The position numbers and the translations under genes are program-made. The notes beneath the pieces were generated by a model, which was given only the letters and a program-made list of their open reading frames with translations, ran no database searches and was not told the DNA's origin. Shown in pieces: positions 36,659-37,951 of a stretch of DNA of 49,935 nucleotides. Position 1 is the first letter of the stretch. The number at the start of each line of letters is the position of its first letter. Origin of the DNA: Gemmatimonadota bacterium (GTDB taxonomy: Bacteria; Gemmatimonadota; Gemmatimonadetes; Longimicrobiales; Gaopeijiaceae). The DNA lies in assembly GCA_012267505.1 (NCBI GenBank), contig JAAXGI010000072.1, positions 1 through 49,935 of the forward strand. The letters are read 5' to 3'.

Positions 36659-37951
36659 TCAGGAGGCTCCCGCCAACGCGGCCCCGGGCATCAGGGCCAG
36701 GTAGTCTTCCCGGAACTTCTCGATCGAGGAGATCACGGGCGCGGCGGCCGAGTCGGAGAGGACGCAGATCGTCGTGCCGGTCATCTGCTCGCTCAGTTCC
36801 ACCAGAGTATCCAGATCCCCCACCCTGCCCCGCCCCTCCTCGATCCGCCGGAGCGTCCGTGCCATCCACGTCGTGCCCTCGCGGCACGGCGTGCACTGGC
36901 CGCACGACTCGTGGGCGAAGAAGTCGACCATCCGCCGCACCTGCTTGACGATGTTCGTCGTCTCGTCCATCACGATGACCGACGCGCAGCCGAGCATCGA
37001 TCCCTTCTCCTGGACGCCCTCGTAGCAGAGTGTGCAGCCCTCGCATTCGCTGGCGTCCATGACGGGAACCGAGGCGCCGCCGGGGATCACGGCCTTCAGC
37101 CGACGCCCCTCGGGGATGCCGCCGCAGACGTCCTCGATGAGCTCCTCCATGGGGAAGCCCATGGGAAGCTCGAAATTGCCGGGCCGGTTCACATGCCCGC
37201 TCACGCAGAAGAGTTTCGTGCCGGGACTCTTGTCGGTTCCCCATTGCCGGTACCACGCTGCCCCGTTGCGGACGATGTGGGGCACGGCGGCGAGGGTCTC
37301 CACATTGTTGATCGTTGTGGGCCTCCCGAACACACCCGAGGCTGCCGGGAACGGCGGCTTCATTCTCGGCAGTCCCCTGTCGCCCTCGAGGGAAGTCATC
37401 AGCGCCGTCTCTTCCCCGCAGATGTAGGCGCCTGCGCCCTGGTGGACGGTGAGGTCGATCGTCGTGCCGGATCCGAGGATGTCCGTGCCCGCGAGTCCTG
37501 CCCCGTAGGCCTCCTCCACTGCGCGGGCGAGGATGAGGTTCGTCTCGAAGAACTCGCCCCGGCAGTAGATGTAGACGTGGTCAGCGCGGATCGCGTACGC
37601 GGCGATCAGGCAGCCCTCGATCAGCTGATGGGGCGACCAGCGGAGGATCTCCCTGTCCTTGAAGGTGCCGGGTTCCGACTCGTCCGCGTTGCAGCAGAGG
37701 TAATGGGGCCCGGCCTTCTCCTTCGGCATGAACGACCACTTGAGGCCGGTCGGAAAGCCCGCCCCGCCCCGCCCCCTGAGGCCCGCATCGCTCACGGCCC
37801 CGATAACGCCCTCGCGGCCGAGTTCGAATGCGCGCGCCAGCCCCTCGTAGCCGCCGAGCGCGCGCCAGCCGGCGAGGGAGCGCGACGCGGGGTCGCCCCA
37901 CCCCCGGCTGAGCATGCGCACTTCCCTCTCGTGTGTGTAGGGGTACGCCAT
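36659..37951 (-). CDS. nuoF: NADH-quinone oxidoreductase subunit F
   Basis: NuoF binds NADH and FMN and carries cluster N3. The 430-residue product shows the nucleotide and FMN loops GLRGRGGAGFPTGLKW (57-72), CNADESEPGTFKDRE (87-101) and GAGAYICGEETAL (172-184). The N3 ligands are C350, C353, C356 (ESCGQCTPCREG) and C396 (TTICVLSD). Unusually, the segment between the soxF-like region and N3 has four more cysteines, C303, C306, C309 and C322 (SECEGCTLCYEG and SMLGC), where bacterial homologues I recall have an acidic LDTPM-like stretch. See the finding. It is 1 bp from nuoE and 3 bp from nuoG. Confidence 0.96.
   Translation of the reverse strand: MAYPYTHEREVRMLSRGWGDPASRSLAGWRALGGYEGLARAFELGREGVIGAVSDAGLRGRGGAGFPTGLKWSFMPKEKAGPHYLCCNADESEPGTFKDREILRWSPHQLIEGCLIAAYAIRADHVYIYCRGEFFETNLILARAVEEAYGAGLAGTDILGSGTTIDLTVHQGAGAYICGEETALMTSLEGDRGLPRMKPPFPAASGVFGRPTTINNVETLAAVPHIVRNGAAWYRQWGTDKSPGTKLFCVSGHVNRPGNFELPMGFPMEELIEDVCGGIPEGRRLKAVIPGGASVPVMDASECEGCTLCYEGVQEKGSMLGCASVIVMDETTNIVKQVRRMVDFFAHESCGQCTPCREGTTWMARTLRRIEEGRGRVGDLDTLVELSEQMTGTTICVLSDSAAAPVISSIEKFREDYLALMPGAALAGAS

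Follow-up and report, generated by a model that had tools for sequence, protein, structure and literature searches.

Metal centres described in NuoF and related proteins

The closest described relative of the protein considered here is the NuoF/Nqo1/NDUFV1 subunit of complex I, with which it shares subunit identity, domains, N3 ligands and operon. Alignments with five solved chains, however, revealed at most one cysteine in the loop preceding the N3 ligands, at position 303, and none at positions 306, 309 or 322, unlike in the NuoF of the window (the whole 49,935-nucleotide stretch of Gemmatimonadota DNA analysed here), where all four positions are cysteines.

Work with electron-bifurcating hydrogenases has shown that a NuoF homologue can harbor an additional metal centre. 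According to the account in PMC8880783, the B2 [2Fe-2S] cluster of HydB is liganded by C438, C476, C531, C536 and H525, and its authors state that the cluster had not previously been thought present in NiFe-HydB. B2 is an unpredicted extra centre and occupies another place in the fold. As a location for the cysteines described below, the B2 site was rejected: HydB C438 corresponds to residue 333, which is Asn in the window's protein and Cys in 0 of the 46 family rows of our alignment.

Further precedents come from the SLBB domain and its beta-grasp relatives. An insert between strands 4 and 5 is described as a hallmark of the Nqo1-like SLBB clade, and related beta-grasp domains, namely the 2Fe-2S ferredoxins and the B12-binding SLBB domains, hold their cluster or B12 at the spatial position of the NuoF insert (PMC1796856). 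The SLBB domain of the [FeFe]-hydrogenase CbA5H has been reported to contain a Cys3His zinc site (C113, H199, C205, C210), confirmed by anomalous diffraction and called structural by its authors (PMC13397568). Both this site and the NuoF insert lie in an SLBB domain, a likeness drawn from the description of the CbA5H ligands only.

The nuoF gene and its cysteine loop

The nuoF gene of the window (positions 36659–37951, minus strand) encodes an NADH-quinone oxidoreductase subunit F of 430 amino acids, as judged from its open reading frame, translation and profile match. It scores 597.2 bits against the NuoF equivalog profile TIGR01959 (cut-off 558.65), which identifies it as a complex I NuoF, and a profile search of the genome found only this one match. 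The gene sits between nuoE and nuoG in a complete nuo operon (27132–41580, minus strand), in which nuoA to nuoN follow one another alphabetically; the genes for subunits E, F and G were checked by profile, and the rest were assigned by translation. The protein comprises an FMN-binding Rossmann-like domain (residues 53–225; 37277–37795, minus strand; PF01512), an SLBB beta-grasp domain (residues 246–303; 37043–37216, minus strand; PF22461, with PF10531 covering 248–296) and an NADH_4Fe-4S domain (residues 337–419; 36695–36943, minus strand; PF10589) that supplies the N3 ligands C350, C353, C356 and C396. These four N3 cysteines are kept in all 46 family rows and all 53 non-family rows of the alignment.

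Fifteen cysteines occur in the protein altogether. The initial annotation had pointed to a CEGCTLC motif and a fourth cysteine upstream of the N3 ligands, and translation of the gene bears this out: C303 (37043–37045), C306 (37034–37036), C309 (37025–37027) and C322 (36986–36988), all encoded on the minus strand, are spaced C-x2-C-x2-C-x12-C. It had also called all four "extra", which holds for three of them, whereas C303 is likewise Cys in the aligned mitochondrial and alphaproteobacterial NuoF proteins, including that of Paracoccus. Its remark that an acidic stretch normally occupies this loop was sound, as C309 stands where the common LD-xPMDY stretch has its Asp. The possibility that the loop cysteines form part of N3 was rejected, since the N3 ligands are all present and separate.

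An AlphaFold2 model of the protein (pTM 0.85, mean pLDDT 82.7, with block means of 86–93 over residues 291–330) predicts strands at residues 285–289 and 324–329, with short helices at 300–303 and 310–315 between them. The predicted fold agrees throughout with that of solved NuoF chains, among them 8e9g_F from M. smegmatis (Z 46.3, rmsd 1.9 Å, 396 residues), in which L305, V307, D310, T323 and residue 133 align with positions 303, 306, 309, 322 and 130. Because the predicted strands and helices agree with the description in PMC1796856, the cysteine loop (residues 297–323; 36983–37063, minus strand) can be equated with the insert between SLBB strands 4 and 5.

NuoG (35084–36655) is short, at 523 amino acids, and scores 410.8 against TIGR01973, below the cut-off of 470.05. 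It retains a C-x2-C-x3-C-x27-C set (C232, C235, C239, C267) that is conserved across all loci read and that, by its spacing, we take to be of the N7 kind. NuoE (37953–38633) has a long N-terminal stretch, its 2Fe-2S_thioredx domain beginning at residue 78. Five residues after the last N1a ligand of NuoE, residue 198 (38040–38042) is Ala in the window, while Cys occurs there in 94 of 144 family loci and in 0 of 35 others. As a partner for the NuoF loop, NuoE C198 was rejected: it is family-specific but independent of the state of the loop.

Distribution of the cysteines

Of 395 genomes of the phylum, spread over 138 genera, 31 matched a DNA pattern for C303-C306-C309-C322 in register with the N3 motif. 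They fall into 5 genera, each within the window's family, and a reversed control pattern contributed none of the matches listed. The five genera account for 34 sampled genomes (23 from g26, 8 from g12 and a single genome apiece from g1, g23 and g27). G143, G190 and G267, which gave no match, are assemblies that lack a family-type NuoF and contain only a 44–45% paralogue; the full set is therefore found in 31 of the 31 genomes of these genera with the family-type gene. The window's sister species, its one congener outside the 395-genome draw, carries His at 309, another type of metal ligand.

When 84,980 species, each represented by a single genome, were searched with a looser pattern (C303, C306, C322 and N3), 66 stretches were recovered. 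All 66 encode a NuoF of the window's type, at 67–80% identity to the window's, and none lies outside this type, within the reach of a pattern that requires this spacing together with the N3 motif CGxxCTPC(R/S) and would let differently spaced sites escape. Five of the 66 records are titled Gammaproteobacteria; the titles of the others name Gemmatimonadetes/Gemmatimonadota, Gemmatimonadales, Longimicrobiales, BD2-11 MAGs and, in one case, Candidatus Binatia. Spread of the motif to Gammaproteobacteria was rejected, as the five records so titled (L076, L102, L109, L112, L113) are genomes placed in the window's family; spread to Binatia was rejected on the likeness of the loop, which in the record so titled (L121) is that of genus g12. 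These six public MAG records thus carry a family-type NuoF under the names of other groups.

Full-text literature searches, judged from titles and the starts of abstracts, returned no report of these NuoF loop cysteines, and the passages of PMC6560083 that came up in them make no mention of such residues. By these searches, the loop cysteines are a so far undescribed feature of a known subunit, the NuoF of complex I.

Variation inside and outside the family

How the set varies is best seen in a sample drawn without regard to the loop. From 34 relatives and the window, 32 family members were obtained; the remaining three of the 35 offered a paralogue only, a fragment that lacked the loop, or nothing that matched NuoF. 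C306 and C322 occur in all 32, C303 in 23, C313 in 7, C309 in 5 and C316 in 3, and residue 309 is Asp in 20, Ser in 6, Cys in 5 and His in 1.

The pair C306 and C322 is again invariant in the 92 distinct sequences of the family (92/92), 88 of which have a further cysteine at 303, 307, 309, 313 or 316. Three loop cysteines are found in 48 sequences, four in 40 and two in 4. Family proteins that lack C303 usually have a cysteine at 313, 316 or 309 instead, a fourth loop cysteine is placed at 309 or 316, and Ser occupies 309 in 13 of the 92.

Several of these counts depend on how the loci were gathered. Loci L061–L126 were found with a pattern requiring C303, C306 and C322, so counts including them overstate C303, while L185–L208 come from family genomes selected for lacking the full pattern and understate C309; the latter are included in the 46 family rows of the alignment, and only the 32-member sample is independent of the loop. 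Before counting, 13 of 214 loci were dropped: six with a partial or split NuoF (L086, L106, L107, L109, L153, the locus of the sister species G001, and L154), five distant paralogues (L209–L213) and two matches (L147, L148), the yield of a search of viral contigs for more diverse homologues. A 48% paralogue, L214, was left out of the 92-sequence and 46/53-row counts.

In the 31 full-pattern genomes, where the four cysteines are fixed by construction of the pattern, the residues between them vary (R/E/M/H/V at 304, E/S/A/D/G/T at 305, T/S/E/D/P at 307), and both TGC and TGT codons are used at three of the four cysteine positions. Because flanking residues and codons vary while C306 and C322 are kept in 32 of 32 members, the loop cysteines are more than a chance set.

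Outside the family, the usual loop reads LD-xxMDY and is shorter by one residue; of the 53 non-family rows, 44 have Asp at 309 and 0 have Cys. Family f2 (11 rows) has neither C306 nor C322, though one of its sequences (L025) has His309 without the other cysteines; family f3 (12 rows) has C322 in 11 and C306 in none; and among the 30 rows of the other families, 13 have C306, 6 have C313 and none has C322. Within the last group, C313 accompanies C306 in f4 (L157, L165, L172) and stands alone in f6 (L163, L166, L170), all of them without C322, and insert cysteines therefore arise elsewhere in the phylum too. The expectation that all four cysteines would be conserved together in relatives was borne out in that the set is restricted to one clade and co-conserved there; it failed in that 303 and 309 swap with 313, 316 and D, S or H.

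Evolution of the cysteines

A quick tree was built from 90 chosen rows with the loop columns left out; its support values are SH-aLRT only, and it does not resolve the base of the family. The window's family forms one side of a branch (SH-aLRT 96). By parsimony, C309 requires 6 changes, none of them outside the family. The C309 of the window stands apart from the other C309 groups and is shared by none of the nine sequences grouped with it (support 99). On these alignments, C309 replaced a conserved Asp more than once, and only in the window's family.

Such turnover is, by the same sequence comparison, concentrated in the loop, though it is not confined there. Columns with at least four Cys changes, counted with a non-Cys root, make up 3 of 23 in the loop vs 4 of 407 elsewhere (Fisher p 0.004, a rough figure that ignores relatedness). 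Columns 86 and 126 also gain Cys on the tree. The highest Cys turnover of all is seen at residue 221 (37287–37291 region, minus strand), where the family tree needs 12 or more changes between Ala, Cys and Ser.

A further cysteine, C130 (codon 37562–37564, minus strand), lies at the end of the second Rossmann strand and might serve as an additional ligand; it is found in 39 of 46 family rows vs 1 of 53 others. When C130 is added to the loop cysteines, the total is exactly four in 80 of the 92 family sequences, and the window's NuoF has five. Four loop cysteines is the usual number in rows with Leu130, and three in rows with Cys130. This pattern fits one four-thiolate site whose members may have moved, but it is only a lead drawn from the alignment, with just three changes of C130 on the tree. 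C130 may also be incidental: the formate dehydrogenase (FDH) beta subunit 6vw7 has Cys at the 130 position, and the loop cysteines are absent from it.

Location relative to FMN and N3

Distances to the cofactors can be taken from mitochondrial complex I. Human A341 corresponds to G312 of the window, the full-length human numbering running 28–29 ahead over this stretch, and human C206 and C425 correspond to C178 and C396. As given in PMC4614703, A341 in bovine complex I lies 17.5 Å from the flavin and 26.7 Å from the FeS cluster, measured from C-alpha to the nearest cofactor atom. The same source describes the Yarrowia A341V variant as normal except for negligible reduction of hexaammineruthenium, a reaction of the flavin site, an effect that its authors leave unexplained.

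HydB provides a second set of landmarks. The loops described around FMN and NAD in NiFe-HydB include 396–403 (GGPSG) and 423–429 (PMC8880783). The former corresponds to residues 290–297 of the window's NuoF and the latter to about 318–324, which contains C322. Since these pocket loops, as described there, map to both ends of the cysteine loop, the NuoF loop leaves and returns at the flavin pocket. Of the two cofactors, FMN would be the closer to any centre held in it. The placement near both cofactors proposed in the initial annotation can be kept for FMN, whereas N3 is adjacent in sequence only (17.5 vs 26.7 Å by the reported A341 distances).

Nature of the putative site

The reading that best fits the ligand turnover seen in the sequences is that the loop is a putative lineage-specific thiolate metal site of one kind or another, a proposal for which we consider the balance of evidence to be about even. 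C306 and C322 would form the fixed core of such a site, and the third and fourth ligands would be drawn from the interchangeable positions 303, 309, 313 and 316, perhaps with C130; the turnover of these positions is observed, and their ligation is what we propose. In the window itself, C303, C306, C309 and C322 would bind the metal together. The likeliest occupant would be Zn(II), stapling the loop down at the flavin pocket, followed by an Fe-S cluster; which metal it is, how it is coordinated and how it acts on FMN are matters of inference.

A metal site would account for the constancy of C306 and C322, for the prevalence of three or four loop thiols, for the usual offset of a lost C303 by 313, 316 or 309, and for the repeated replacement of Asp309 by Cys, together with the His309 of the sister species. 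The exact count of four thiols that results when C130 is included, and the concentration of Cys turnover in the loop, point the same way, as do the use of the insert position for B12 or a 2Fe-2S cluster in beta-grasp relatives (PMC1796856) and the Cys3His zinc of an SLBB domain (PMC13397568). Against this, in 4 of the 92 sequences the counted positions hold no Cys other than C306 and C322, Ser309 in 13 of 92 would be an unusual ligand, and His309 occurs in the f2 sequence that lacks the other cysteines. Cys also turns over elsewhere, as column 221 demonstrates, and the contribution of C130 is weakened by 6vw7 and by the few tree changes on which its complementarity with C309 rests.

As to the metal, structural zinc would be more likely than a redox centre in the loop. 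Zinc is favored because the free swapping of ligands suits a structural site and because the SLBB domain of CbA5H holds a structural zinc; zinc or another structural metal nevertheless stands as a tentative assignment.

The main metal-free rival is a thiol switch, in which a reversible disulfide would join C306 and C322 and a second pair or a relay would be drawn from 303, 309, 313 or 316, so that the loop would sense oxidants made at the flavin and tune or protect the NADH site. The invariant thiols are exactly a pair, as would suit a disulfide, and C322 falls in the segment that corresponds to a loop lining the FMN/NAD pocket of HydB (PMC8880783). The commonest state of the loop, however, is three thiols (48/92), which would leave one unpaired, and a single pair does not explain the repeated gain of Cys at 309. 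The site is also cytoplasmic, and structural disulfides are rare in the cytoplasm. On balance, we regard such a switch as rather unlikely.

It is also conceivable, in line with the initial annotation, that the metal site holds an additional Fe-S centre of the [4Fe-4S] or [2Fe-2S] type, near enough to FMN for electron transfer. Such a cluster in the SLBB insert could exchange electrons with FMN while lying far from N3, and would provide a second electron exit or entry, its ligands having moved during evolution. For 4Fe-4S clusters the usual spacing is a CxxCxxC triplet with one more Cys at a distance, which the CX2CX2CX12C of the window's NuoF shows but most relatives, lacking the third Cys of the triplet, do not. 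Plant-type [2Fe-2S] ferredoxins follow CX4CX2C plus a distal Cys, from which the loop departs. Known clusters can have D, C or H at one ligand position, residues that also occur at 309. The B2 cluster of NiFe-HydB provides a precedent (PMC8880783), and one residue of the loop lies 17.5 Å from the flavin by C-alpha (PMC4614703). Yet in most relatives there are three loop cysteines whose spacing differs, Ser309 being present in some, and four sequences have two only. In addition, residue 309 precedes a helix in the model, so that an Asp there may be a cap, and no new cluster motif that would mark a partner was seen in NuoE or NuoG. Considered as a part of the metal-site reading and counted within it, an Fe-S centre appears doubtful.

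Plain drift is the least likely reading and an improbable one: small buried positions could take Cys at times, shared by descent and without common function, as the 12 changes of column 221 among A, C and S, the gains at columns 86 and 126 and the single cysteines at 306, 313 or 322 in other families of the phylum would allow, but C306 and C322 are never lost in 92 distinct sequences while their neighbors vary, Asp309 became Cys more than once only in the window's family, and Cys turnover is concentrated in the loop.

Implications for complex I

Few parts of complex I are as conserved as NuoF, whose cofactors are regarded as a fixed set. A clade with fixed extra cysteines by the flavin pocket, in which ligand positions are swapped from one lineage to the next, would amount to a natural experiment on the origin of metal sites. 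If the putative site of this family is redox-active, it would change the handling of electrons or oxidants at FMN, where NADH is oxidized and superoxide is produced.
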